Below are positions 48,901-63,195 of a stretch of 64,000 nt of DNA, in pieces. A program made the translations under genes and the position numbers. The DNA lies in the NCBI GenBank assembly GCA_036339585.1, contig JAYZAS010000007.1, positions 62,001-126,000 of the forward strand, in the 5' to 3' direction. Within the stretch, counting starts at the first letter, position 1; every line of letters starts with the position of its first letter. The DNA comes from Pseudomonadota bacterium (GTDB taxonomy: Bacteria > Pseudomonadota > Alphaproteobacteria > UBA8366). The notes beneath the pieces were generated by a model. The model was not told where the DNA came from. It saw only the letters and a list, made by a program, of their open reading frames with translations, and searched no databases.

Positions 48901-49371
48901 TTATTCTGCCAGGCTGATATTATTCGCTACTGTTATCTTTCCATCATTTAGTATTTCACATCTAACACCACCTTTGTCCCATAAAGCGGCTTTTAGCCCT
49001 GGCTTCCGGAGCTTGCCCTCGAGGTAGCCGCATGGCTGGCAGAGCCTATGCACTTTGAGTTCTACTGTGCCAATTGAGATAAATTTTCCGACAAGAGAAT
49101 TTAGGCGTATTCCTTGAGAAATAACATTTCTGCGACATTGCTCCGGTAAGCAGCTGATGTCTGGAAAATGTTTTAGCGCCTCTAATTCTTCAATTTCGAT
49201 AATAGTTAATTGCCTTCCCGGCTCAGATTTTTTTGAATACGTGCCTGTTCCTAATGCATAACGGTCTCCCTCTATTCCTTCACCGGCGAGACAGGATAGA
49301 TGATCTGCTGAGATCATTTTGTCCCCTCCATTAGGGGTCGTGAAGAGGGAGATGACTTTTCCATTGATCAT
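48901..49371 (-). CDS. MOSC-domain protein
   Basis: About 156 residues from the ATG at 49369-49371. The MOSC fold is shown by GKVISLFTTPNGG, AGEGIEGDRYALGTG, QLTIIEIEELEAL, CRRNVISQGIRLNSLVGKFISIG and the cysteine-bearing HRLCQPCGYLEGKL. In MOSC proteins the conserved cysteine binds molybdenum cofactor or sulfur. It ends the UbiD operon, and a molybdenum hydroxylase is encoded across the divergent spacer, which could give it a substrate. MOSC proteins also act in N-hydroxylated base reduction, so the role is open. A TTG at 49395 is an alternative start. Confidence 0.85.
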   Translation of the reverse strand: MINGKVISLFTTPNGGDKMISADHLSCLAGEGIEGDRYALGTGTYSKKSEPGRQLTIIEIEELEALKHFPDISCLPEQCRRNVISQGIRLNSLVGKFISIGTVELKVHRLCQPCGYLEGKLRKPGLKAALWDKGGVRCEILNDGKITVANNISLAE

Positions 49372-49398
49372 TTTAAAAAGTATCCTTTCTATCAATCA

Positions 49399-50634
49399 CT
49401 AGGATTTGGCGCCTTTTAGTAGATCGCGAAGTGGAATGTCATCATCTTTTAAGTCAGACTCTGAAAACGGCAGTTGTGCGCTAATCATTCTACGTGCTAC
49501 TCGCATATCCCGTTGACGATTGATTGAGAATGCCGATTTAATTACGCCACCTTCAACTTGGAATGCGGTGCAATCCCGTCCGTTGATGTCCCCCCGAATT
49601 ATGAGATTATTCCATTTTTCCGTAAAACCAGCAATCTGCAGGTTTACATCAAACTGATCTGTCCACATCCATGGTACTTTATTGTAAGCCTTGAGCTCAT
49701 TACACATCGTGCGAGCTGCTGCTAATGCTTGGTCCTGGGCGTTGAGCCATGCTTCAAGTCGAATGTGACGCCCAAGCATTGGATTAAAATGGTTTGTATT
49801 GTCTCCGGCTGCGAAGATATATGGGTTTGAAGTACGCGCGTACTCGTCCACCACGATGCCGTTATCTATCTTTAACTCGGCGCTTTCTGCAAGATTAGTT
49901 TCCGGTAAAATACCAATGCCAACTATTACAGCATCAGCAGTAATTTTTTCTCCAGAATTTGTGATCACTTCATTTACTTCATTTTTGCCAAAGAACTCTT
50001 TAATGCTTTGGTTCAATCTCACTGAGACATTATTGTCCGCATGAAGTTTTAAAAAAACATCTGATGCCTCGGCTGGGAGGGACCGCCCCATTAATCTTGA
50101 GCTGGCTTCAAATACAATAACCTCTGCTCCTCTCATGCGGGCACTGGCGGCAACCTCAAGTCCAATGAATCCTCCACCTACGACCAATATCCGTGCGCCT
50201 TCGTTGAGATTGCCCTCTACGGCGCGGCTATCTTCAATAGTCCTTAACGTTAGTATATTGTCTAATTCTGAGCCGGGGAGATCAAGCGTTTGTGGACGAC
50301 CACCAGTGGTGAGTAACAGTTTGTCATAATGGATTGATTCACCATTATTTAACAGGACAAGTTTTGTCTCAGCATCAATGGACACAGCGGTCCTTTCAAG
50401 CAAGATATCAATATTTAGGTCATTGTAATAATCGGCATCACGAATTAATTGAAATTTACTGTCGTTTGGTGAATGCAGCAAATCTTTTGAAAGGGGGGGG
50501 CGTTCGTAAGGAAATGTTGCCTCCTCTCCGATTAATGTTACACGTCCTTCATGACCAAAGTTTCGAAATGATTGCACTGCCACGCCCCCAGCATGACCAG
50601 CACCTATGACTACAAAATGCTCCTCTTTTGACAT
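49399..50634 (-). CDS. FAD-dependent ferredoxin/rubredoxin reductase-type oxidoreductase
   Basis: 411 residues. Two dinucleotide-binding motifs are present: VVIGAGHAGGVAVQSF (residues 8-23, FAD) and ILVVGGGFIGLEVAASARMRG (about 149-169, NADH), plus YERPPLSKDLL and the closing IFAAGDNTN block. This is the plan of the ferredoxin-reductase components of Rieske dioxygenases and P450 systems. No partner oxygenase or ferredoxin is in the window; the 2Fe-2S subunit of the nearby molybdenum hydroxylase is not a ferredoxin. It is fifth of six genes in the UbiD operon. Confidence 0.9.
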   Translation of the reverse strand: MSKEEHFVVIGAGHAGGVAVQSFRNFGHEGRVTLIGEEATFPYERPPLSKDLLHSPNDSKFQLIRDADYYNDLNIDILLERTAVSIDAETKLVLLNNGESIHYDKLLLTTGGRPQTLDLPGSELDNILTLRTIEDSRAVEGNLNEGARILVVGGGFIGLEVAASARMRGAEVIVFEASSRLMGRSLPAEASDVFLKLHADNNVSVRLNQSIKEFFGKNEVNEVITNSGEKITADAVIVGIGILPETNLAESAELKIDNGIVVDEYARTSNPYIFAAGDNTNHFNPMLGRHIRLEAWLNAQDQALAAARTMCNELKAYNKVPWMWTDQFDVNLQIAGFTEKWNNLIIRGDINGRDCTAFQVEGGVIKSAFSINRQRDMRVARRMISAQLPFSESDLKDDDIPLRDLLKGAKS

Positions 50635-50773
50635 ATTAATTTAATCCTCTAAACGCCGAGATTATGTCTGGTGAATGAATAATCGGAAGGTGTAACGTCT
50701 TGCCGCAGGCAAACATAACGAAAAAAAAACACTAAACAACAAGATCTTAAAACACCACTCTGAATACCTTATA

Positions 50774-52603
50774 TCAGTTTAACGCTGTACGAATATCAAC
50801 CAAAACTACGCTACCATCAATAACTTCGAGCACTGCTTTTTTGAGTGTAGGCGCTATTTCTGTTGGTTTTTTAATCGGGCCGTGCGCTTTAGCTCCGTAG
50901 GCGCGTGCGATCATGGCGAAGTCAACATCTGGGTTGATCATTTTTTGACCTATCCATGCATTCTCTTCCGGACGTTTTCGTTCGTCCGCAAGTTTACGTT
51001 GATGTTCCTCGTCATTTCCAAAGGAAGTATTGTTATGAAGTATTATTAAGGCCGGAATGTTGTAGTGGGCAGCTGTCCACAGTGCTGCGGGATTCATAGT
51101 AAAATCCCCATCCCCCATGATCGCCACGGTAAATTTTCCCATGTCGCGAGCGGCGAGAGCTGAACCTATAACTCCACCAGGACCATAACCAACCCCACCA
51201 CCGGCATTATTGCCGAGATAACGAGCACAACCATCGAACTGCCAAATTCCCTCATACCAGCTACGATAGTTACGGTTTGCAAGAATATAGTCTTTATCTT
51301 GAACGGCGTTATACACTTCATAGATTAACCGTGGAACCGAAATAGGATCGTTGTCAAAGTTATCTTCTAAGATTTTCCTTTGACGAGAACGAAGTGCTCT
51401 ATGGCGTTTTGCGAGAGCTTTGGCACGCATTGCGGCTGTATCGATCCAATGTTCATTCTGGTTTGCTCGGGATTTAAGCTCGCCAAGTAATTGCTTTAAA
51501 CCGTAGATAGGATCAGCGCATAAGTGCACATCAACTGGAGGCAAGGCGCCTCCAATAGCAGCCCACTTGTCTATTGAAAAATCATTAAGCGATAGGTCTA
51601 TAATCTTTTTATTGTGCCCTTCAGCTTCAGTAACCATTACTCCGTAACCGCCCCCGCGAGCAGCACCGTAATTCCCAAGCATGTCGGCAATATCTTGGTT
51701 GTCTACGACCAGTATTAAATCCGCCTCACTTCGAACTTTAGTCTCCTTACTAGCACCAAATCCGCCAGTCATATTTTGTGGATGATCAGTGGCTAAATTG
51801 ACTACATCTTTGCCTTCTTGGAACGCGGAACCTGTGAGCTCTACCAATTCTTTCAAAACATCAGTAGTGCCGGGTAAACGTCCGCAGCGTCCGCCCAATA
51901 CCAAGGGTTTGTTTGCTCGAATGAATAAGTCGGCTGCTGTTTGTATACTTCCTTCCGGTGCTGCAATAGGAGGAATATCAGAGTAGCGGGGTAATGCCAT
52001 ATTAGGCATTTCCAGATCCTCATCGATCGTCGCCTCTTGCAATCCGGTATCTAGCGACAAATAACTTAGCCCCATTGGGGCTGTGCAAGCTAATCGATAG
52101 GCTTTTGCAAGTGAATTGAGGACTGCTTGTTGTGTGGGAGGCTCGTCGGTCCATTTGGTATATGGTTGCATAATTTGTGATTGATTATTCGCGCTATGGA
52201 GCCAGTCAATAAAGCGTCTTTCAGCCGGATCCATTGGCCCAGAGCCGCCAATAACGATCATCGGGATTCGATCGGCAAAGGCATTCCAAAATGACATAAT
52301 GGCATGTTGAAGTCCCACTAAGTTGTGCAGTATTACGCAAGCAGGCTTGTTAGTAACCTTTGCGTAGCCATGTGCCATAGAAACAGCAATTTCTTCATGC
52401 GGGCAAAGAATCATCTCTGGCTTTTTATTGCCGCTGTAGTTTACTAACGAATCATGGAGGCCACGAAAGGTTGAGCCAGGGGTTAACGTAACGTAATCAA
52501 AACCCATCTCTCCAAGCATATCTGCCATAATGTCAGAACCGTATTGGGGGGCTATTTTTTTGTCGGGCAAATTGACGGGGATTTCTGAGGGGCGTTTCTT
52601 CAT
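50774..52603 (-). CDS. Thiamine-diphosphate-dependent enzyme (acetolactate synthase/benzoylformate decarboxylase-like)
   Basis: 609 residues with three domains. The Pyr domain contains the cofactor-activating glutamate in CPHEEIAVSMAHGYAK (about residue 70). The central domain includes ANKPLVLGGRCGRLPG. The PP domain has GDGDFTMNPAALWTAAHYN and ends HNN, the metal-diphosphate motif. It resembles the broad group annotated as acetolactate-synthase-like but lacks evidence for a true IlvB role and has no IlvN partner. It lies 30 bases after a UbiD gene and probably acts on a 2-keto acid related to the UbiD substrates. It is not recognisable as sulfoacetaldehyde acetyltransferase. Confidence 0.87.
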   Translation of the reverse strand: MKKRPSEIPVNLPDKKIAPQYGSDIMADMLGEMGFDYVTLTPGSTFRGLHDSLVNYSGNKKPEMILCPHEEIAVSMAHGYAKVTNKPACVILHNLVGLQHAIMSFWNAFADRIPMIVIGGSGPMDPAERRFIDWLHSANNQSQIMQPYTKWTDEPPTQQAVLNSLAKAYRLACTAPMGLSYLSLDTGLQEATIDEDLEMPNMALPRYSDIPPIAAPEGSIQTAADLFIRANKPLVLGGRCGRLPGTTDVLKELVELTGSAFQEGKDVVNLATDHPQNMTGGFGASKETKVRSEADLILVVDNQDIADMLGNYGAARGGGYGVMVTEAEGHNKKIIDLSLNDFSIDKWAAIGGALPPVDVHLCADPIYGLKQLLGELKSRANQNEHWIDTAAMRAKALAKRHRALRSRQRKILEDNFDNDPISVPRLIYEVYNAVQDKDYILANRNYRSWYEGIWQFDGCARYLGNNAGGGVGYGPGGVIGSALAARDMGKFTVAIMGDGDFTMNPAALWTAAHYNIPALIILHNNTSFGNDEEHQRKLADERKRPEENAWIGQKMINPDVDFAMIARAYGAKAHGPIKKPTEIAPTLKKAVLEVIDGSVVLVDIRTALN

Positions 52604-52633
52604 GTTAACGATCTTTCTGTCATTTTTATTATT

Positions 52634-54259
52634 TTAATCAAATTCGTCAGCGCGTATGGGTGTTTCTGGCAGAGAATTCGTTGTTATTCTCTGTTTGGTT
52701 ATTTCACCATTTTTGAGATAATGACCATCAGCTGCTCGCTTAGCTGCTTGGTCCCAATTATCGCTCCAATCACCCAGCGTGTATCCGTGCCAGGGGCTCT
52801 CCGGCTTTAGTGAAGGCAAGCCTAGCCTTTCCCATAAACCTAGGGCATTTTCCATATATTCTTTTTTTGGTAGGGCTAAAGGAGGTAACGGCCCCTTCAT
52901 GGTAGCATCTATTAATAACGCAGAGTCCTCTGATACCGATCGTGGCACGCGCGGTCCCTGTCCGTGGCTGCGATTATCCAAAATATGACAATCAATAGCA
53001 GGATTACAGCGGTAACCCATTGCCCAAAAAACCGCGTCACCGTTCTCAGGGTCAATATCATCATTGATAGCTATAATGAATTTTCCGACACCGCTTTGAA
53101 GCGCGGCACAGCCATAAAGAGCTCGCCAAATCTCAGTTGAGGGAGCTTCGCGCTCCATTTGTATAAAAACTATTTTCCGGAGATTGGTTAATGGCTCGTG
53201 AAGTGAAACCTTAATAACTCCATTAATTCCTAGATTATTTTTTAAATGATTAAGAAATAATGGTTCATAGGCAAGACGCTTTATCACAGAGCTTTCACTC
53301 GGTGTGACCTGACTAATAATTGATGGAATAACAGCGTTACGGCGCCGAGTAATTGCCGTCACTTGCATCGTCATATTGTAGCTTTCAAGCGCAACATAGC
53401 CGGCGCTTTCGCCAAAAGGTGCCTCTGGTTCCACGTGCTCGGTGGATATGAGACCTTCAACCACTAATTCTGACTCCGCAGGAACGTTTAATTCGATTGT
53501 CTTACATTTTGTAATGTTTATAGGTTCTCCAACGAGACCTCCCGCAATATCAACCTCATCAATGCCCATTTGTAGTTTTTGTGGTGACATAAAATTGACA
53601 GCGGGCGGGCACCCCACAACGATAGCGCACGGCATTGGTTCTTTTCGCTCTTTCCATTTTTTCCAATGGACATATCCTTCTGCTCCGCCTGGCCTAACGA
53701 CCATCCGGACTGCAAGTCGGTCGGAAGCTTTCAGGCCTGCGCGATAGGTGCCCATATTTTGTGTGCCGGTTATGGGATCCTTTGTTATGCAGTTGGTTGC
53801 GGTCAGGTAGGGGGCGCAGTCAAATCCCGGCGTTGAAATGGGTATGGGCAGTGCGTCTAGGCCACAGCCATTGCCAAGTAGATCGTTACCGGTCAACACA
53901 ATTTCATGACAAGGCGCATCTTCTATTAAACGAGGTTTCACCGGATTGGAAATTGCTCGTCCCCATGTTTCACCCACTTCATCCAGTTCACAACCTAATC
54001 CAATTCTGTATATCTCTGGATTTGTGGCCAGGGCTCCAACAATCACTGGGAGATCATACTTTCGTCCTAAGCTATCGATAATGTTAGTAAAAAGAAATGC
54101 CTTGCGATCCGCTTCAGCAATACCACCCCTAAATTGCCAACGTACCAGCGGATGCATCTCTGTGTCTTTATTTATAGGATCGTTAATTTCGATAAGTAAC
54201 TTCGACGCTCGAAGCGTTTCGATGTGTTCGTGCAAGTCTGGGTAATTGCGTTGGCTCAT
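52634..54259 (-). CDS. UbiD-family (de)carboxylase, paralogue 1
   Basis: 541 residues from the ATG at 54257-54259, preceded by GGGAGGAAGG; an earlier frame start at 54361 gives 34 unconserved residues. The catalytic Arg of NMGTYRAGLK is R173, and the two catalytic Glu of PEAPFGES are E279 and E284, the spacing seen in Fdc1/UbiD. The third domain (about residues 330-470) includes SSVIKRLAYEPLFL and VGKFIIAINDDIDPENGD. UbiD enzymes use prenylated FMN, supplied by UbiX, to decarboxylate aromatic or alpha,beta-unsaturated acids. It is the third of three tandem UbiD genes on this message, about 50-60% alike by eye to its neighbour. The substrate is unknown. Confidence 0.92.
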   Translation of the reverse strand: MSQRNYPDLHEHIETLRASKLLIEINDPINKDTEMHPLVRWQFRGGIAEADRKAFLFTNIIDSLGRKYDLPVIVGALATNPEIYRIGLGCELDEVGETWGRAISNPVKPRLIEDAPCHEIVLTGNDLLGNGCGLDALPIPISTPGFDCAPYLTATNCITKDPITGTQNMGTYRAGLKASDRLAVRMVVRPGGAEGYVHWKKWKERKEPMPCAIVVGCPPAVNFMSPQKLQMGIDEVDIAGGLVGEPINITKCKTIELNVPAESELVVEGLISTEHVEPEAPFGESAGYVALESYNMTMQVTAITRRRNAVIPSIISQVTPSESSVIKRLAYEPLFLNHLKNNLGINGVIKVSLHEPLTNLRKIVFIQMEREAPSTEIWRALYGCAALQSGVGKFIIAINDDIDPENGDAVFWAMGYRCNPAIDCHILDNRSHGQGPRVPRSVSEDSALLIDATMKGPLPPLALPKKEYMENALGLWERLGLPSLKPESPWHGYTLGDWSDNWDQAAKRAADGHYLKNGEITKQRITTNSLPETPIRADEFD

Positions 54260-54362
54260 TCTACCTTCCTCCCTGCAAGAATGTGACGCTTTCATGTTCG
54301 ATATCATATGATTTTGGTGCTTGCAGTTCCTAAAATTTTTCAGCCAATCTTGAAAGTCCAAT

Positions 54363-56423
54363 CTAATTGATTTCAGGACGAACTTGACGAAGTGGTGTTC
54401 CGGGTTTTAGACCCCTCTCGGTTTGTTGTGCGGTAAGCCTTCCATTTTCCGCATAATCTCCTTCGACAGCACGCCGAGCCATTTGTTCCCATCGGTCACT
54501 CCAGTCACCGAGATTGGGTCCATACCATGGTATTTCAGGACTGAGTGCAGGCAGTTCTAGTTCCTTCCAAATCTCCGCAGCTTTTTCCATAAATGGGCGC
54601 GTGGGGAGTGCTAAAGGTGGCATAACTTCTCCCTCCATGGTCGCGTCAATGAGTAGGCTTGAGCCTGAAGAAAATTCGAAAATTTCAGCGCCTGAGGCCT
54701 GTTTTACGTCTCCATATGTTATAATAGTGGAATCTAGCGTTGGATTACACCGGTAAGCAAATGCCCAAAAGATGGAATCAGGGTTGCAAGAGTCGATATC
54801 ATCGTCGACTGCCACAACAAGCTTAATGTTCGTGTTTCGGAAATTAGCGGTTCCATTAAGAGCTCGCCATATCTCGGAGCGCAAAGACCCGCGGTCCATC
54901 GTTAATATTACAAAATGCGGGGTAGGCTCTGGCCCTCCTACAGCAACTTTTTTGATACCTTGAATGCCTAAATTATCTTGCAGATGCGAAAGAATTGTTG
55001 TTTTTCCGGCCTTCCTAATATTCAGGGATGGTCGACATGGAATTGCGCTATTGGCTGATTTTGATTTAATGGTGGCATCAATTAGCATCGTAGAATCGGT
55101 GCTACGATTACCCTTCGGTCCATGGCCTCCAGCTCGATGTTTTAATATGTGAATATCCTGTATTGGATTTGCACGTTGAGTGATTGACCACAAGATTTCA
55201 TTGCCGTTGATTGGATCTATATCTTCGCTAACTGCTATCACATACTTTCCACAATCGGCACGGAAGTTAGATATTCCATAAAGAGCTCGCCAAATCTCTG
55301 TAGTTTTTGCTTCGCGGGCCATTCGAATGAAAGTAACTTTGCGTAAATTCGTCAAAGGTTCGTGAAGTGTAACGCTTTGGATACCTTGTATGCCAAGATT
55401 ATCTCTTAGGTGAGCTAAAAACATTGGTTCATAGGCAACCTTCTTTATTACTGAACTTTCACTGGGAGTTACTTGGCTAATTATCGAGGCTAAAACCGGT
55501 TTCGTCTTGGAAGTGATTGCTGTCACGTGCATCTGCATGTTGAATTCTTCAAGCGCGATATGCCCATGGCTCTCACCAAATGGCGCTTCTGGTTCTAAGT
55601 AGTCGGTCTCCACAAATCCCTCTATAACCAATTCAGCATCGGCAGGGACCGTAAGATCGATGGTTTTGCATCTCACAATATGCATAGGTTCGCCGGCCAA
55701 ACCTCCGGCGACCTCCATTTCATCCATATTTTTAGGTAATTTTTGAGGTCCAGTAAAAGCCACGTGTGGCGGTGCACCTATAACAAAAGCACAGGGCATT
55801 TTTTCACCGAGTTTTTTGTATTTGCACCAGTGTTCGTAACCACCAGCGCCACCAGTCCGACTGGCCATTCGAACACAAAGTCGATTGGATGATTTTAACC
55901 CAGCTCGATAGGTGCCCATATTCTGAATTCCTGTTTCTGGATCCTTAGTTATACAATTGGTTGCGGTGAAATATGGTGCGCAGTCATAACCAGGCGTCGA
56001 AATAGGTATCGGAAGTGCATCAAGCCCTTTTCCTTCCCCAACAAGTTCATCTCCTTTCCAGATAGTTTCCTGACATGGAGCAACATTTACTTCTATTGGA
56101 AGTATCGGGTTTGCAATGGCTTGTTCCCAATGTTTCCCTATCGAATCCAATTCGACATCCATACCGATTCGATAAACTTCCGGCGTAGTCGCTAAAGCAC
56201 CCACCACAACCGGCATGCGATATCTTCTACCTTTACTGTCGACAACATTTTCGAAAAACCACGCTTTGCGCTCGTATTCGGGTATACCTCCTCTAAATTG
56301 CCAGCGAACTAACGGGTGCAGCTCCGTATCTTTGTTTATTGGCCGGCTTATTTTGCGCAGCAAGCCTGCACTCTCTAACCTTAATAAATGGTCCTGAAAA
56401 TCGCTGTAATTGCGCTTTATCAT
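54363..56423 (-). CDS. UbiD-family (de)carboxylase, paralogue 2, with duplicated C-terminal domain
   Basis: 686 residues, about 120-145 longer than its two neighbours. The catalytic residues are intact: R173 in NMGTYRAGLK and E279/E284 in PEAPFGES. The extra length is a tandem copy of the third domain. Unit A (336-452) runs from AHLRDNLGIQGIQ through EIWRALYGISNF and AVSEDIDP to LIDATI; unit B (479-596) repeats SHLQDNLGIQGIK, EIWRALNGTANF, AVDDDIDS and LIDATME, joined by a 26-residue linker. The C-terminal tail PPLALPTRPFMEKAAEIW is present once, after unit B. The UbiD C-terminal domain mediates oligomerisation, so the copy could change assembly. The start has no strong ribosome binding site. 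It is the middle gene of the tandem triplet. Confidence 0.9.
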   Translation of the reverse strand: MIKRNYSDFQDHLLRLESAGLLRKISRPINKDTELHPLVRWQFRGGIPEYERKAWFFENVVDSKGRRYRMPVVVGALATTPEVYRIGMDVELDSIGKHWEQAIANPILPIEVNVAPCQETIWKGDELVGEGKGLDALPIPISTPGYDCAPYFTATNCITKDPETGIQNMGTYRAGLKSSNRLCVRMASRTGGAGGYEHWCKYKKLGEKMPCAFVIGAPPHVAFTGPQKLPKNMDEMEVAGGLAGEPMHIVRCKTIDLTVPADAELVIEGFVETDYLEPEAPFGESHGHIALEEFNMQMHVTAITSKTKPVLASIISQVTPSESSVIKKVAYEPMFLAHLRDNLGIQGIQSVTLHEPLTNLRKVTFIRMAREAKTTEIWRALYGISNFRADCGKYVIAVSEDIDPINGNEILWSITQRANPIQDIHILKHRAGGHGPKGNRSTDSTMLIDATIKSKSANSAIPCRPSLNIRKAGKTTILSHLQDNLGIQGIKKVAVGGPEPTPHFVILTMDRGSLRSEIWRALNGTANFRNTNIKLVVAVDDDIDSCNPDSIFWAFAYRCNPTLDSTIITYGDVKQASGAEIFEFSSGSSLLIDATMEGEVMPPLALPTRPFMEKAAEIWKELELPALSPEIPWYGPNLGDWSDRWEQMARRAVEGDYAENGRLTAQQTERGLKPGTPLRQVRPEIN

Positions 56424-56432
56424 AAATCCGTC

Positions 56433-58127
56433 CTATTTGTTGGACTCTGGAATACCGTCCCATTTAATTTCTTCATTAGGCTCCTCATCTCCGACACCGG
56501 GATTACCAATATTGAGTGTGCGCACTTCAGTATTCATTTCGACATCATTGCGGCGATATTTTGCGATAATTTTGCCTGTTTCCCAATAATCACTCCGCAC
56601 AGCGCGACGTGCCATGATATCTAGTTCGGCATTCCATTCGCCAAGGTCATAGCCATACCATGGACGCTCTGGTTTTATCTCGGGCAGACCTAATTCATTC
56701 CAGATCTCTGCCGCTTTTTCCATGTATTGACGCTTCGGCAGGGCAACCGGTGGCAAGTCTTCCTTCAAAGTGGCGTCAATCAGTACAGCAGAATCCTCAG
56801 AGTCAATCATACTTCGAGGGCCATGGCCCTCGTGTTTGTGGGGCAACATATGAGTGTCTCGATGGGGTTTGCAGCGATATGACATAGCCCAAAAAATTGC
56901 ATTTGCATCATCAGGGTCGATGTCCTCGTCTATGGCGACAACCCATTTTCCTTCTGCCATTCGGTGTGCGGCAGTAGCATAAAGTGCTCGCCAAACTTCC
57001 GTTCGAGCTGCTCCCTTTTTCATTATTATCAAAATCAGCTTGTGAAGAGACGTCAAAGGCTCGTGCGTTGAGACCCTTACGAGACCTTGTATGCCTACGG
57101 CGTCTCGTAGGTGCCCTAATAGCTTTGCCTCGTACGCTGGCCGTTTAATAGTAGCTGATTCGCTTGGTGTTACTTGGCTGACCCAAGAAGTAATCACTGC
57201 ATTTTTCTTACGTGTAATTGCTGTAACATCCATAAAGCCATTGTATTCCTGCAAATTGACATGTCCGTGGCTCTCACCAAAAGGAGCCTCCGGCTCAAGC
57301 CATTCGGTACTAATGAAGCCCTCTACAACAACTTCAGCGTCGGCTGGCACAATTAGGTCTATCGTCTTTGCTTTCACCATATGTAATGGTGCATTTACTA
57401 GCCCACCCGAGACATGATGCTCATCAAGTCCATGAGGCAGCTTTTGTACTGAGGTAAAAGACACAATTGGCGGACAGCCGAGAACGACGGCACAAGGCAT
57501 AGGCTCACCACGCTCTTTCCATTCGAGCCAATGTAGATACCCGCCTGTATGATGCTCAATTGAGGGGTTAAAACCTAATCGGTCTGGTGCTTTAAGTTGC
57601 GCGCGATAATTACCATTGTTGTATGACCCATCAACGGGGCTTTTTGTAATAAAGTGTGATGACGACATATAAGGGGCATTGTCCCAACCGGGGGTTGATA
57701 TTGGGACCGGTATGGAATCTAATCCATGGCCGTCCAGAAGTTGTTCACCAATAAATACTTGTTCGTGGCAAGGCGCATCATTTGATTCTAGAGTGATTGG
57801 CGGAACTGGATTATTCATTGCATTAATCCACGTGGACCCTATCTCATCGATCTCACAACCCATGCCAGTTTTATAAATTTGTCTGCTCCCTGCGAGGCCG
57901 CAAACAAGAACTGGAATATCAAATTTCCGGCCTTTACTGTCCACAACATTGGTAAACAGCCATGCTTTTCGCTCTTTATCGCTGATGCCTCCCCTAAACT
58001 GCCAGCGTACTAAGGGATGCATTTCGGTATCTTTATTAATTTCTCTATCAATTTCAATGAGAAGGTCAGCCGAACGTAATGCCTCTATGTGATCGTGCAG
58101 GTCGGGATACTGACGTTTTGCACTCAT
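56433..58127 (-). CDS. UbiD-family (de)carboxylase, paralogue 3
   Basis: 564 residues. The catalytic Arg is R175 in NGNYRAQLK and the two Glu are E280 and E285 in PEAPFGES. The domain order matches paralogue 1, with VTPSESATIKRPAYEAKLL and EGKWVVAIDEDIDPDDAN in domain three. It has the most divergent substrate-facing segment of the three (SSHFITKSPVDGSYNNGNYR against TATNCITKDPxTGxQNMGTYR), so it probably acts on a different acid. It is the first gene of the six-gene minus-strand operon and is 9 bases before paralogue 2. Confidence 0.93.
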   Translation of the reverse strand: MSAKRQYPDLHDHIEALRSADLLIEIDREINKDTEMHPLVRWQFRGGISDKERKAWLFTNVVDSKGRKFDIPVLVCGLAGSRQIYKTGMGCEIDEIGSTWINAMNNPVPPITLESNDAPCHEQVFIGEQLLDGHGLDSIPVPISTPGWDNAPYMSSSHFITKSPVDGSYNNGNYRAQLKAPDRLGFNPSIEHHTGGYLHWLEWKERGEPMPCAVVLGCPPIVSFTSVQKLPHGLDEHHVSGGLVNAPLHMVKAKTIDLIVPADAEVVVEGFISTEWLEPEAPFGESHGHVNLQEYNGFMDVTAITRKKNAVITSWVSQVTPSESATIKRPAYEAKLLGHLRDAVGIQGLVRVSTHEPLTSLHKLILIIMKKGAARTEVWRALYATAAHRMAEGKWVVAIDEDIDPDDANAIFWAMSYRCKPHRDTHMLPHKHEGHGPRSMIDSEDSAVLIDATLKEDLPPVALPKRQYMEKAAEIWNELGLPEIKPERPWYGYDLGEWNAELDIMARRAVRSDYWETGKIIAKYRRNDVEMNTEVRTLNIGNPGVGDEEPNEEIKWDGIPESNK

Positions 58128-58238
58128 TTTAAATTGCCCCCGTATTCGCTGATATTAATTCGAGCTTCTGACTAAAAACTCGTACAATATCGTCCAAGGT
58201 GGTTCAATCTCAATTTGTGTAAGTTGTGAAAATGTTTG

Positions 58239-58268
58239 CATTGACGCAGGGCAGTCAAAACGTCAATG
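58239..58268. promoter_or_regulatory. Candidate operator between the UbiD and molybdenum-hydroxylase operons
   Basis: Perfect eight-base inverted arms CATTGACG (58239-58246) and CGTCAATG (58261-58268) are separated by 14 bases, so the half-site centres are 22 bases apart, about two helical turns. Two more TTGAC half-sites (58280s and 58290s) follow on the plus strand. The divergent spacer between 58128 and 58297 would suit a regulator controlling both operons. No regulator gene is nearby. Confidence 0.5.
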
Positions 58269-58297
58269 TCTTCTTCCGATTGACAAGGGTTGACCAA

Positions 58298-59182
58298 ATG
58301 AAAGCTGCAGCGTTTGATTACATCAGGCCGGATACACTTGAAGCAGTGTTGGAAGCGTTGGACCGTGCAGGTGACGAAGGTCGCATTATAGCTGGTGGGC
58401 AAACTTTGGTTCCAATGATGGCAATGCGTTTGGTCAAAGCAGAATTATTAATAGACATTAATCATATCCAAACCTTAGCAGGTATACAGACATCTAATGA
58501 AAACCTCTCAATCAGGGCATGCACCAGGCAAGCCGAGGCTGCGGCATCTGAGAAGATTATCAATAAATTGCCTCTCCTCGCAAAAGCGTTGGAGCATGTT
58601 GGTCATACCCAAACCCGCAATCGTGGAACGGTCGGTGGGAGTATAGCCAATGCAGACCCGTCGGCAGAAATACCTATTGTGGCTCGTTGTTTGGATGCAA
58701 AGATCGTGGCACTTAGAAAAGATGGTGAAAGACAAATTTGTGCTGGTGATTTTTTCTATTCTGCTATGGATACAGCACTAGAAGATACAGAGTGTCTCAC
58801 TGAAGTACGCTTTCCGATTTGGAGTGAGGAAGTCGTTGGGAGTGGGTTCCATGAGGTGAGTATTCGCAATAGCGATTATGCACTCGTTGCAGTAGCGGCT
58901 CAGCTAGCAACGGATTTTGGGGGCAAATGCACTCGTGCAGCCGTTGCTGTAGGGGGCTGTGCCCCTGCTGCAGTAAAGATCGATGCGGTAGAAAAAGCAC
59001 TTGTGGGTAAACCTCTTTCTGATGCTGTCTTAGATGAGGCATGCGGCTTGATAATGGAAGCACTAGACCCTGATACCGATGTTCACGCTACGGCCGAATA
59101 TCGAAAACGTGTTGCGGGGAGGATTACTCGCAGGGTATTGGAGGAGGCTAGGGCTGAGGTTTATGAGGCAAGGAATGAGTGA
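58298..59182 (+). CDS. Molybdenum hydroxylase FAD-binding (medium) subunit
   Basis: 294 residues from the ATG at 58298; a start at 58226 would place the inverted repeat inside the gene. The FAD pyrophosphate motif IIAGGQTLVPMMAMR is at residues 30-44 and TRNRGTVGGSIANADPSAEIP at 106-126; both are hallmarks of the CO-dehydrogenase/xanthine-dehydrogenase flavoprotein subunit. The C-terminal CO_deh_flav_C domain starts near GSGFHEVSIRNSDYALVAVA. The subunit passes electrons from the Fe-S subunit to FAD. It is the first of three structural genes with overlapping stops and starts. Confidence 0.93.
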   Translation: MKAAAFDYIRPDTLEAVLEALDRAGDEGRIIAGGQTLVPMMAMRLVKAELLIDINHIQTLAGIQTSNENLSIRACTRQAEAAASEKIINKLPLLAKALEHVGHTQTRNRGTVGGSIANADPSAEIPIVARCLDAKIVALRKDGERQICAGDFFYSAMDTALEDTECLTEVRFPIWSEEVVGSGFHEVSIRNSDYALVAVAAQLATDFGGKCTRAAVAVGGCAPAAVKIDAVEKALVGKPLSDAVLDEACGLIMEALDPDTDVHATAEYRKRVAGRITRRVLEEARAEVYEARNE

Positions 59183-59666
59183 ACAGTATTTAAAAAAGAT
59201 AAACGTAACGGTAAATGGAATGTCTCAAGTCGCTCAAATTCCACCTCGTATGACACTTCTTGACTTTCTTCGTGACGAGCTCGATTTGACTGGTAGCCAT
59301 GCGGGGTGCGAACATGGTGTCTGTGGTGCGTGTTCGGTCATTCACGATGGTGCTCCGGTGCGCTCATGTTTAATGTATGCAGTTCAAGCAGATGGTTGCG
59401 AAGTAACCACTGTCGAGGGGCTTTCGGAAGCGGATGGCACATTAAGCATACTGCAAGATTGTTTTTGTGAAACGCACGCCATGCAATGTGGATATTGTAC
59501 TCCTGGTATGCTTATAGCAGGTCATTCTCTGCTCCAAGAAAACCCTAGCCCCAGTGAGATGGAAATAGTCGAGGCCATAGGAGGTAATATCTGCAGGTGC
59601 ACAGGTTACAGGCAAATTATCGAGGCAATTGCACTTGCTGCAAGCCGTCTTAAGGAGGCGTCGTGA
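59175..59666 (+). CDS. Molybdenum hydroxylase [2Fe-2S] (small) subunit
   Basis: 163 residues from the ATG at 59175, overlapping the previous stop by eight bases. The plant-type cluster uses C45, C50, C53 and C65 (GCEHGVCGACSVIHD...C), and the second cluster C105, C108, C140 and C142 (QCGYCTPGM and GGNICRCTGY). All eight cysteines are intact. It relays electrons from the molybdenum site to the FAD subunit. The gene ends with a stop that overlaps the GTG start of the large subunit. Confidence 0.95.
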   Translation: MSEQYLKKINVTVNGMSQVAQIPPRMTLLDFLRDELDLTGSHAGCEHGVCGACSVIHDGAPVRSCLMYAVQADGCEVTTVEGLSEADGTLSILQDCFCETHAMQCGYCTPGMLIAGHSLLQENPSPSEMEIVEAIGGNICRCTGYRQIIEAIALAASRLKEAS

Positions 59667-62050
59667 CCGAGTATCGTTACGTGAGCAAACCCCGGAGGAC
59701 AAAAGAAGACCGTCGTTTTGTTACGGGACAAGGAAGTTTTGTGGGCGACATTAAATGCCATGGTATGAAGCATGTCGCATTGGTAATGAGCCCGTTCCCT
59801 TCAGCCGAGATCAAGTCGATTGATGCTACGGAGGCGCTTGCCCTTGATGGCGTGCATTATGTATTGACAGGACTAGAATTAGAAAACGCAACCAATTCAC
59901 TGATGTCAGGTCTAGATTTGCCGAACTATCACCGTTACCCACTTGCCTCAAAGGTAACGCGCTATGCTGGGGAGTGGGTAGCCGCTGTTGTTGCCGATAG
60001 TCGTTATATTGCTGAAGATGCTGCGGAACTAGTTTATGTGGATTATGAGGCATTGGATTTCGTTGTAGATCCAGAAGAAGCGATAAAGCCAGGAGCCCCG
60101 TTGGTACATCCTGAGATCGGTGGAAATATTTTTTTTCAGCGTAAGTTTGAATGGGGCCCTGTTGATGACGATTTTGAATCAGCTGATCACGCTATTAGTT
60201 ACAGAGCCCGCTGGAGCCGTAATTCAACGGTGCCAATTGAGACATTTGGTGTGGTAGCTCAATGGAGTTCTTCAGAAAAATTACTCGATGTCTGGGCTTC
60301 GATCCAAATGCCGAAGTATCAGGAACAAATTAGTAATGCCCTAAAACTTTCATCGAATAGTGTTCGCGTTCATTATGATGTTGACGTAGGAGGCAGCTAC
60401 GGGGTCAAACGCGGTATAAAGCATTCAGTTTTAGTGGGGTATCTCTCCATGAAACTGGGTTATCCTGTGCGGTTGATAGAGGATAGGCTTGAAAATATGA
60501 TTGGCGGAGATGCTCACGGGCCAGACCGTATTTTTGATGTTGACATGGCTTTCGACGGTGAAGGAATTATCAAGTCTTTGCGGATGCGTGCATTGGATGA
60601 TGCTGGCGCGTCTCCTGGACGTGCCCCTCTTCAACTAGGAAAACCGGTTACCGCTATAGTTGGTCCTTACCGGATTGGCAGTGTCGAATATGAAGCTATC
60701 TCTGTAAGTACACATAAGACAACACAAGAGGCTGTGAGAGGATTTGGTCAGTCGCCGACAAATTTTGCAATAGAGGTTGGAATTGATAAAGTAGCGCGCT
60801 TTCTAAATTTAGATCGATTTGAAGTCCGGCGCAGAAATTTTATTCAAAAGGATGAATTTCCTTATGAAATACCCAGCGGCACCTCTTACGACAGCGGTGA
60901 TTATCATGCTGTTCTGAACAAAACCGAGAAACTAGCAAATATAAGATCGTTAATATCAAAACGCGATCAAATCCGGGCAGAGGGAAAGTTTGCAGGCATT
61001 GGAATTGCTACTTGTCTTGAGCCATCTGGAGGAAATGCAGGATTTGAGCCGCTTTTTAATGAAAAAAATCCTACAACGACTTGGATGGAAAGCTGTCAAG
61101 TTAAGATTGACCTCAATGGCTCTATCACAGGTATTATTGCGACCACATCGGCAGGCCAGGGACATGAATCTTTAGTTTCTACGGTTATTGGCGAGGTACT
61201 ACAACGCAATCCAGACTCAATTAGGGTCACACGCACGGATTCGCTCGCAAGTTTGCCGAGCAATAGTCCGGTTGGAAGCAGGATGGCAATAATGTTGGGT
61301 GGTGCGGCACAAGGTGCATCGGAGAAGATAAGGAAGCAACTTATTCGCATAGCGGCGCACAATCTTCAGCTTCCTGTTAATCAATTAGAATATTGTAATG
61401 GTGATGTTTTAGCAAGGAAAGAGCCGCACATAAAAATTGAGTGGTGCGAGCTTATTGAAATTGCGCATCGCAGATATCACGACTTGCCAGATAATATGGA
61501 GCCAGGGTTGCAAGCACGCCATGTCTGGGAAGTACCGACTGGTGGTTCAATGCCCACGCCAGACGGAAAAGTGCAAATGTACCCATGTTACTCTTTCGAG
61601 GCACACATTCCGCTAGTCTCTATCGATCCGCTTACCGGTCAGGTAACAATTCAAGATTATTACATTGGGCATGATTGTGGCACTCAAATAAATCCGCACA
61701 TTGTCCATGGTATGACTTATGGAGGCATCGCGCACGGGATAGGTGCAGCACTTTACGAAAAGTTCGAATATAACGATGACGGCCAATTATTAGCCGGTAC
61801 GTTTATGGATTACTTGTTGCCTTCTGCTCACGAGATTCCAAAAGTAAATATGGTCGACCATTGTACGCCCTCTCCCCTAACTCCTATGGGTCAGAAGGGC
61901 AGTGGGGAAGGTGGTTACCTTGGCGCTCCAGCGGCTATAGCGAGCGCAGTCAATGATGCTCTAGAACCGATAGGTAGTGAAATTTTGACACTACCAATGC
62001 GCGTCCAAGATATTGAGGAGGTTTTATGTGACGCTATCCAAGCTGGATAG
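59663..62050 (+). CDS. Molybdenum hydroxylase large (molybdopterin) subunit, not CO dehydrogenase
   Basis: 795 residues from a GTG with GGAGG upstream. Molybdopterin-binding parts are present, and the active-site loop is EAVRGFGQSP (356-365). Form I CO dehydrogenase has a Cys-containing loop there and form II has AYRGAGR, so this is neither. The catalytic Glu is E749 in GQKGSGEGGYLG. The N-terminal part reads GRRFVTGQGSFVGDI-like (DRRFVTGQGSFVGDI). Such enzymes hydroxylate aromatic heterocycles, aldehydes or similar carbons using MCD or MPT cofactor. The divergent UbiD operon suggests an aromatic or unsaturated acid pathway. XdhC/CoxF-type maturation genes are not visible here. Confidence 0.92.
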   Translation: MTEYRYVSKPRRTKEDRRFVTGQGSFVGDIKCHGMKHVALVMSPFPSAEIKSIDATEALALDGVHYVLTGLELENATNSLMSGLDLPNYHRYPLASKVTRYAGEWVAAVVADSRYIAEDAAELVYVDYEALDFVVDPEEAIKPGAPLVHPEIGGNIFFQRKFEWGPVDDDFESADHAISYRARWSRNSTVPIETFGVVAQWSSSEKLLDVWASIQMPKYQEQISNALKLSSNSVRVHYDVDVGGSYGVKRGIKHSVLVGYLSMKLGYPVRLIEDRLENMIGGDAHGPDRIFDVDMAFDGEGIIKSLRMRALDDAGASPGRAPLQLGKPVTAIVGPYRIGSVEYEAISVSTHKTTQEAVRGFGQSPTNFAIEVGIDKVARFLNLDRFEVRRRNFIQKDEFPYEIPSGTSYDSGDYHAVLNKTEKLANIRSLISKRDQIRAEGKFAGIGIATCLEPSGGNAGFEPLFNEKNPTTTWMESCQVKIDLNGSITGIIATTSAGQGHESLVSTVIGEVLQRNPDSIRVTRTDSLASLPSNSPVGSRMAIMLGGAAQGASEKIRKQLIRIAAHNLQLPVNQLEYCNGDVLARKEPHIKIEWCELIEIAHRRYHDLPDNMEPGLQARHVWEVPTGGSMPTPDGKVQMYPCYSFEAHIPLVSIDPLTGQVTIQDYYIGHDCGTQINPHIVHGMTYGGIAHGIGAALYEKFEYNDDGQLLAGTFMDYLLPSAHEIPKVNMVDHCTPSPLTPMGQKGSGEGGYLGAPAAIASAVNDALEPIGSEILTLPMRVQDIEEVLCDAIQAG

Positions 62051-62609
62051 AAGTGATAATGTTCAAACGACACATCCCTTTTGGAATTTTTCTCTCGAGG
62101 TGTATTCCAAGAAAGGAGTTTCAGATTCTTGTATTGCACTTCAAGAAAAATGCGGAGCAGATGTTAATATTCTTTTATTTTGTTGTTGGACAGCATCGGT
62201 AGGGCACCCCGTATTATCTAAGCATGAGGTAATATTATTGTGCAGAACTGCTGCAGACTGGAACAATGATATAGTTCAAAAGCTACGAAGTGTTCGCAAG
62301 AGTTTTAAAATCAAAAATTACGAATGCAATGAGGAGGAGGTACGACAGCTACAAAAACAAGTTTTGGAAGTCGAAATAAAGGCAGAACAGATTGAGCAAT
62401 TTAAATTAATGAGCACGGTTGCAGTGCTTGAAGATAATAGCGTACCAGAGATGCAGCGAATCAATAATGCATTAGAGAATATACGCTTATATTTTTCTAT
62501 GCCTGAATTATCCGCAAACTGTTACACTTCAGAGTTGTTTAATATTTTAGGGGGCGTATTTCCAAAGGTCTCTAAAACAGATATCAAGTCGGCTTTGAAA
62601 CAAACTTAA
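62028..62609 (+). CDS. TIGR02444/DUF2390-like protein
   Basis: 193 residues from a GTG at 62028, with GAGGAGG six bases upstream; a TTG at 62013 would contain the ribosome binding site. PFWNFSLEVYSKKGVSDSCIALQEKCGADVNILLFCCWTAS is the conserved N-terminal part of the TIGR02444 family, usually found as a small stand-alone alpha-helical protein of unknown function. The rest is helical and acidic. It overlaps the large-subunit gene by 23 bases, so it is translated from the molybdenum-hydroxylase message, an unusual neighbourhood for this family. Confidence 0.75.
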   Translation: MTLSKLDRSDNVQTTHPFWNFSLEVYSKKGVSDSCIALQEKCGADVNILLFCCWTASVGHPVLSKHEVILLCRTAADWNNDIVQKLRSVRKSFKIKNYECNEEEVRQLQKQVLEVEIKAEQIEQFKLMSTVAVLEDNSVPEMQRINNALENIRLYFSMPELSANCYTSELFNILGGVFPKVSKTDIKSALKQT

Positions 62610-62613
62610 CTTT

Positions 62614-63195
62614 TTATTTTGTACCAGTCTCCTTCCATCGATGAACAGTACCTGTTTCAATTCCAAATTGATCGAGCGCCCGTCCTACTGTTTGATTTAT
62701 AATGTCAATTATACTAGCGGGACGATGATAAAAAGCAGGGACCGGTGGCATTATAAGACATCCGAATTGCGCTGCCTTTACCATTAGCTCCAAATGCCCT
62801 TGGTGAAGTGGTGTTTCCCGAACCATAAGCCCTACTTTGCGACCCTCCTTTAGGCAAACATCTGCAGCACGTGTTATCAGATTATCGCTAAAACAATTTG
62901 CGACACCTGCAAGCGTTTTGATAGAGCATGGTGCAATAATCATACCTTCAGTTCTGAAAGAACCCGATGAAATGGACGCTCCTATATCTTTAAAGCTATG
63001 CACTATATCAGCTAAATTTCGCACATCATCTAAAGCGTAATCTGTCTCCGCAGCTATCGTCTGTGCCGCTGACGGTGATAAAATAAGATGAGTTTCGATA
63101 TTTGTGTTTTCTTTGAGGCATTCTAATATTCGGATACCGTAGATTGGGCCTGAAGCTCCAGAAATTCCGACGATTATGCGTTTGACGTCGATCAT
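62614..63195 (-). CDS. ubiX: Flavin prenyltransferase, UbiX/Pad1 family
   Basis: 193 residues. IIVGISGASGPIYGIRILECL at the N-terminus is the FMN-binding motif of UbiX. Other conserved parts are SSGSFRTEGMIIAPCSIKTLAGVANCFSDNLITRAADVCLKEGRKVGLMVRETPLHQGHLELM and MPPVPAFYHRPASI, which form the prenyl-phosphate site. It prenylates FMN to the cofactor that UbiD enzymes need. Three UbiD genes lie 4.5 kb away on the same strand. It is convergent with the DUF2390-like gene. Confidence 0.96.
   Translation of the reverse strand: MIDVKRIIVGISGASGPIYGIRILECLKENTNIETHLILSPSAAQTIAAETDYALDDVRNLADIVHSFKDIGASISSGSFRTEGMIIAPCSIKTLAGVANCFSDNLITRAADVCLKEGRKVGLMVRETPLHQGHLELMVKAAQFGCLIMPPVPAFYHRPASIIDIINQTVGRALDQFGIETGTVHRWKETGTK

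Follow-up and report, generated by a model that had tools for sequence, protein, structure and literature searches.

The gene at positions 54363..56423 on the minus strand of the window (the whole 64,000-nucleotide stretch of DNA analysed) encodes a UbiD-family enzyme of 686 aa with two C-terminal oligomerization (UbiD_C) domains in a single chain, and trees together with gene order have shown that this fused gene consists of two formerly adjacent UbiD paralogues, here termed U2 and U3, of which U2 gave the body and U3 the C-terminal part. An earlier note on this DNA had recognized the two C-terminal domains and taken them for a tandem duplication of the protein's own domain; the observation holds, and the proposed origin is replaced by the fusion, in which the second domain and the tail descend from U3. 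This indicates that one UbiD partner could lose its catalytic part and persist within another chain as a predicted assembly module.

Layout and family membership of the fused protein

The open reading frame runs from 56423 to 54363 on the minus strand, starts with ATG and contains no internal stop. Its N-terminal and prFMN-binding (rift) domains (residues 1–318; 55470..56423, minus strand) are attributed to U2 from their identity to the U2 of genome G009 and from the N-terminal tree, as are the following connecting helix and first UbiD_C domain, or unit A (residues 319–454; 55062..55469, minus strand), from identities and the tree of C-terminal domains. A linker (residues 455–476; 54996..55061, minus strand), of which at least the second half aligns to U3 as its former connecting helix, leads to the second UbiD_C domain, or unit B (residues 477–596; 54636..54995, minus strand), assigned to U3 from Pfam, trees and predicted fold, and to a C-terminal tail (residues 597–686; 54366..54635, minus strand) assigned to U3 from identities and conserved tail columns. 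The unit limits first proposed, 336–452 and 479–596, were correct to within a few residues, and the second C-terminal domain accounts for the extra length of the protein.

Pfam places two UbiD_C stretches in the fused protein (P0001) and one in each of the two neighbouring UbiDs of the window (P0002 and P0003; paralogues U1 and U4), as the earlier note had stated. Residues 477–607 alone reached 36.6 bits against UbiD_C (curated cut-off 24.2, E 5e-9). When the protein was aligned to itself, unit A against unit B plus tail gave a Smith–Waterman score of 200 with 52 identities in 134 columns, compared with a mean of 28.7 (s.d. 4.9) and a maximum of 54 after the second stretch had been shuffled 500 times. 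Units A and B are thus homologous, and the presence of two C-terminal domains is confirmed.

The fused protein scored 164.9 bits with the Pfam UbiD rift domain, passing the curated cut-off of 23.3, and 22.6 bits with UbiD_N (PF20695; cut-off 24.3), for which the neighbours scored 22.5 and 26.4. The NCBIfam model of a UbiD subfamily, TIGR00148, gave 213 bits, below its cut-off of 244.85, as did both neighbours (192.7 and 187.1). Arg173 (codon 55905..55907, minus strand) and Glu279 and Glu284 (the first and last codons of EAPFGE, residues 279–284; 55572..55589, minus strand) occupy columns that are invariant among P0001, P0002 and P0003 and align with UbiDs in the PDB (HmfF and UbiD), so the arginine and glutamate pair noticed earlier is indeed retained; by their counterparts in Fdc1 these three residues are taken to be the Glu-Arg-Glu catalytic triad. 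By its domains (PF01977/PF20696) and triad residues the protein is a UbiD-family enzyme, with prFMN binding and (de)carboxylation predicted, and one catalytic triad is left in it. A single oligomerization domain per chain is usual in UbiDs and lies outside the Pfam definition, so that the possession of two lowers only the claim that this is a typical UbiD.

The domain order, the triad residues and a nearby UbiX-type gene are all shared with the prFMN-dependent (de)carboxylases HmfF, UbiD, AnInD, VdcC and Fdc1, and the fold predicted for unit B is that of their oligomerization domain. The described chains, in the portions of PMC8988006 and PMC8379154 available, have one such domain, whereas the fused chain has two, derived from different genes. 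As the earlier note had supposed, a UbiD with two C-terminal domains was not found described in the open-access literature, and the arrangement is new within the known UbiD family.

A full-length AlphaFold2 model built from 8 alignment rows was too poor to use (mean pLDDT 37.3, pTM 0.26). Unit B and the tail alone (residues 470–686, 11 rows) gave a moderate model (mean pLDDT 60.8, pTM 0.52), in which 7 of the first 10 ten-residue blocks averaged above 70; two scans of viral contigs found no relatives to deepen the alignment. In a Foldseek search, all of the best 50 of 101 matches at E 0.001 or better were UbiD-type decarboxylases, and the best matches had TM-scores of 0.37–0.46 by query length and rmsd of 3.4–14.6 Å over 133–193 columns. 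A second structure comparison, restricted to model residues 1–135 without the tail, returned UbiD-type structures in rows 1–49 (Z 8.5 to 15.6, one of them a consensus design) and another fold in row 50 (Z 5.5); the best match was 6h6x_B (Z 15.6, 2.2 Å over 110 residues). Within the limits of this moderate model, unit B is predicted to fold like a UbiD oligomerization domain, and a differing fold of the second unit, which the earlier note had named as a ground for abandoning its reading, did not appear.

Origin from two adjacent paralogues and spread

Genomes G005 and G009, of another genus in the same family, have a row of four UbiD genes, arranged as TPP enzyme–U4–U3–U2–U1–molybdenum hydroxylase, with U3 a complete gene between U2 and U4. 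The window genome (G000) and G001 have TPP enzyme–U4–fusion–U1–hydroxylase instead, and G002 has the same order split over two contigs; a separate U3 gene was not found in G000, G001 (84% complete) or G002. Residues 1–330 of the fusion are 76% identical to G009 U2 and 65% to G009 U3, and unit A 78% and 54%, respectively. Unit B, by comparison, is 52% identical to G009 U3 and 43% or less to U1, U2 and U4, and the tail 60% to G009 U3 and 53% or less to the other three paralogues, with 54% to the single UbiD of genome G049.

In a tree of 59 C-terminal domains, unit A grouped with U2 (100/99) and unit B with U3 (100/98); the latter grouping was recovered (98/97) in a second tree from which 9 of the 59 rows had been dropped. 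The N-terminal tree, from which 7 divergent rows and the broken row of G002 were dropped, placed the body of the fusion with U2 (100/98). The trees comprised 38 chosen fetched loci besides the genes of the cluster, with six further open reading frames, the second UbiDs of the same loci, omitted. Approximately unbiased (AU) tests rejected units A and B as sisters (p 1.3e-7), unit B with U2 plus A (p 0.0047) and, less strongly, unit B with U4 (p 0.023), a U3-versus-U4 test that is weakened by the long stem of unit B. Unit B stands beside the complete U3 genes within a set of complete UbiDs (96/95), so the complete gene is the older state. In the N-terminal tree, however, U3 grouped with two other sequences (57/87) and not with its relatives from the tree of C-terminal domains, so that an older exchange between paralogues is possible.

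These results also bear on the tandem duplication. Units A and B are clearly homologous and adjacent, as such a duplication would leave them; nevertheless, unit B is closer to the U3 of G009 than to unit A or to U2, the AU tests reject units A and B as sisters as well as unit B with U2 plus A, the linker aligns with U3, and the U3 gene is missing at exactly this place. Trees and synteny together rule out self-duplication of the C-terminal domain, and we attach very little weight to it.

In G002, directly after LIDATIKS, the linker aligns to U3 without gaps from residue 318 and through the U3 connecting helix; in G000 the alignment to U3 begins at residue 462 and that to U2 can extend to residue 472. 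Taken together, these alignments put the deletion junction between residues 454 and ~472, just after the UbiD_C domain of U2 and near a domain boundary. An in-frame deletion of ~1.3 kb in an ancestor of the genus joined U2 to U3, removing the U2 tail (~90 aa), the short intergenic gap (~90 bases) and the prFMN-binding part of U3 (~315 aa). What remains of U2 is the catalytic body and unit A, linked, at least partly via the U3 connecting helix, to unit B, and what remains of U3 is all or most of that helix, the oligomerization domain and the C-terminal tail. Subunit fusion by deletion between neighbouring genes is a general mechanism, and the likeness here is the in-frame deletion joining adjacent paralogues; the difference is that one partner, cut close to a domain boundary, has no catalytic part left and persists only as an oligomerization domain plus tail.

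The fusion is present in all three genomes of the genus examined, in two of them as an uninterrupted gene. G001 has it at full length (81% identical), and in G002 a single contig carries everything from unit A to the tail (87% identity across 367 residues), with the N-terminal 263 residues of the fused protein at the end of another contig. A misjoined contig or faulty assembly might be suspected, given that G001 and G002 are MAGs and that an apparently chimeric contig end of G002 lies inside the fused gene. However, the layout is common to three genomes at 81–89% identity, and the gene shows a signature of selection. An assembly artefact, raised by the earlier note against its own reading, is thus very unlikely, and we give it next to no weight. 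At that end (contig C2 of G002, L038:8580-9275) the fused UbiD gene runs into ~696 unrelated bases, which are AT-rich near the contig terminus, contain internal repeats and were found in neither G000 nor G001, so that this end of the public MAG looks chimeric.

A frame with two UbiD_C domains occurred in 3 of 114 relatives (searched with unit B) and 3 of 43 genomes of the order (searched with units A and B, E 1e-30), in each case only in G000, G001 and G002. Outside the window genome, among the candidates scored, no full-length match was found in 398 sampled genomes of the phylum (units A and B, E 1e-20, at most 5 candidates scored per genome) or in 385 sampled genomes of the class (P0001, E 1e-120, at most 3 per genome); P0001 was also compared with 59 relatives, where the matches listed include the full-length fusion of G001. 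These searches are sensitive for the UbiD subfamily of the fusion rather than for every UbiD branch. Two long frames were examined and rejected: a 730-aa frame of G010, which resembled a second case, contains 139 unknown residues and matches unit B in two parts, like one interrupted domain, and a 728-aa frame of G635 has a single C-terminal domain followed directly by one tail. Four other long frames (873, 609, 618 and 621 aa) have one UbiD_C stretch each, and further long frames from the search of the 114 relatives matched unit B once each. The window genome encodes a total of four UbiDs. A separate UbiD_C search of 6 UbiD-rich genomes returned 161 matches, with details drawn from part of them; four genomes of family f108 (G340, G251, G417 and G146) have a striking paralogue expansion, with 28 to 37 matches per 2.5–4.1 Mb genome.

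Gene cluster and known rows of UbiD paralogues

The fused gene lies between two UbiD paralogues with a single C-terminal domain each, identified by Pfam: U1 upstream (56433..58127, minus strand), with orthologues in G001, G002, G005 and G009, and U4 downstream (52634..54361, minus strand). The TTG listed as the start of U4 probably lies too far upstream, and an ATG at 54259 fits the start of the sequence shared with its orthologues, leaving ~100 bases after the fused gene (54259–54361). Beyond U4 the conserved cluster continues with a TPP-dependent enzyme (50774..52603, minus strand; Pfam), which adjoins U4 in G001, G002, G005 and G009, and a ferredoxin-NAD reductase-like flavoprotein (49399..50634, minus strand), assigned by Pfam and synteny and scoring below the cut-offs of the NCBIfam models listed. 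On the other side are a divergent molybdenum hydroxylase of three subunits (58226..62050, plus strand; Pfam, with NCBIfam matches below cut-offs) and a UbiX-type flavin prenyltransferase (62614..63195, minus strand; PRK06029 and TIGR00421 of NCBIfam over cut-off), whose product likely supplies prFMN. The region 48901–63195 holds, in all, a MOSC protein, the ferredoxin reductase, the TPP enzyme, three UbiDs, the molybdenum hydroxylase, a TIGR02444 protein and UbiX, and it looks like a putative pathway for the breakdown of an aromatic or heteroaromatic acid.

Rows of adjacent UbiD paralogues are known from other systems. The naphthalene carboxylase cluster of N47 has, in the accessible part of its description, four UbiD-like genes, for which a complex of approx. 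750 kDa is proposed (PMC12016498). The gene rows studied here resemble that system in the adjacency of the paralogue genes and, in G005 and G009, in their number; a fused subunit is not mentioned in the accessible part of that source (PMC12016498). Phenylphosphate carboxylase alpha/beta likewise has several adjoining UbiD paralogues, although the fused protein falls far below the cut-offs of its models (111.9 against 564.6 for TIGR02723 and 109.9 against 468.95 for TIGR02724).

Change in unit B and its possible place in the assembly

Since the fusion, the two C-terminal domains have changed unequally. On the stem of the genus in the tree of C-terminal domains, unit B accumulated 0.89 changes per column and unit A 0.20, a ~4-fold difference. 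Within the genus, dN/dS between G000 and either G001 or G002 was 0.08–0.12 for unit A, 0.13–0.16 for unit B and 0.22–0.23 for the tail; it was 0.10 for the body (G000 against G001 only, the chimeric contig end having made the N-terminal comparison with G002 unusable) and, for the linker of 22 codons, 0.55 (G000 against G002 only). The G001–G002 pair provided no codons for unit B and was not used. Between G000 and G002, unit B has 16 nonsynonymous and 25 synonymous changes, and neutrality is rejected (p 4e-7). Codon and tree comparisons thus indicate that unit B is a fast-changing domain on the stem of the genus that is now under purifying selection, the fusion being known from three genomes, one pair of which is very similar (A-domain dS 0.04).

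Among columns conserved in at least 90% of 47 relatives with a single C-terminal domain (53 rows less 6 divergent ones), unit A keeps 31 of 33 and unit B 22 of 33, and the tail of the fusion keeps 23 of 24 conserved tail columns. Seven of the 11 losses in unit B fall within two loops, HEPLT and GxGP. The earlier note had suggested a pseudo-symmetric subunit, and this stands as far as there are two homologous units; unit B, which lacks the two conserved loops, is not equivalent to unit A. Residues 574–578 of unit B (in the second loop) align weakly by phmmer (21 bits, E 0.0017) with residues 435–439 of Fdc1, an active-site loop in which F437 presumably has a role. Residues 433–436 of P0001 (window 55116–55127) form the G-H/Q-G-P loop of the subfamily, at the place of the conserved clamp leucine of other UbiDs (Fdc1 L439), in an uncertain register. 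L439 of Fdc1 is essential for catalysis, according to the available part of PMC8379154.

In UbiD oligomers, as far as the accessible portions of PMC8988006 and PMC8379154 describe them, the oligomerization domains form a core and the C-terminal helix docks on the prFMN domain of a neighbour. Opening and closing are movements of the prFMN domain against the oligomeric core, and crosstalk between neighbouring active sites is described as unsettled (PMC8988006, in part). Each fused chain would thus bring a single catalytic domain, a pair of core domains and a docking tail. In the core, unit B would be a seat without its own active site, and the retained U3 tail would dock on the prFMN domain in place of the lost U2 tail; if the core keeps six seats, it could be built from three fused chains with three active sites. 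Alternatively, the fusion may stand in for two subunits in a mixed complex that also contains U1 and U4, and such a putative U1–U4 assembly would explain why only the assembly part of U3 was kept. The reading that we prefer, with a probability of about 0.62, is that a deletion fused U2 to U3 and that the chain fills two seats of the core, the B seat probably lacking an active site. This suggests an assembly in which docking seats outnumber active sites, and the idea of the earlier note that a second C-terminal domain may alter assembly stays a reasonable conjecture.

The main rival accepts the same fusion and holds that unit B is no more than what a decaying U3 left behind, a tolerated spacer whose sole role is to carry the tail that U2 lost. 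The fast stem of unit B (0.89), the 11 conserved columns out of 33 that it no longer matches, compared with 1 of 24 for the tail, and the dN/dS of unit B and tail, above that of the C-terminal domains and tails of U1 and U4 (0.01–0.04), are all in keeping with such a remnant. Against it, neutral change is rejected at the dN/dS observed for unit B, two-thirds of the conserved columns are retained, and the A–B–tail frame is unbroken in all three genomes, where unit B has one indel of a single codon, so that we regard the remnant as unlikely, though still a serious competitor. Another reading of the same fusion, in which units A and B pair within the chain as an internal pseudo-dimer and yield a monomer instead of a larger oligomer, finds some encouragement in the existence of UbiD family members as dimers or hexamers (PMC7976604, in part); we consider it improbable, and it overlaps with the preferred reading, unit B being packed as a core domain in both, so that the odds of the two are not exclusive.

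A bolder reading is offered tentatively: a natural half-of-the-sites UbiD, in which core seats would alternate between a catalytic unit A and an attached unit B without a prFMN domain, the latter a relic of the second gene of a mixed complex. If this were true, the ancestral U2–U3 contact would have mattered enough to outlast the catalytic domain of U3. Beyond that, with two core domains and one catalytic domain per chain, the fused protein is a natural experiment in which the count of seats is uncoupled from that of active sites. The surviving part of the lost U3 is the assembly part, and this provides a hint that UbiD paralogues encoded side by side, such as those of the naphthalene carboxylase cluster, may assemble into mixed oligomers.
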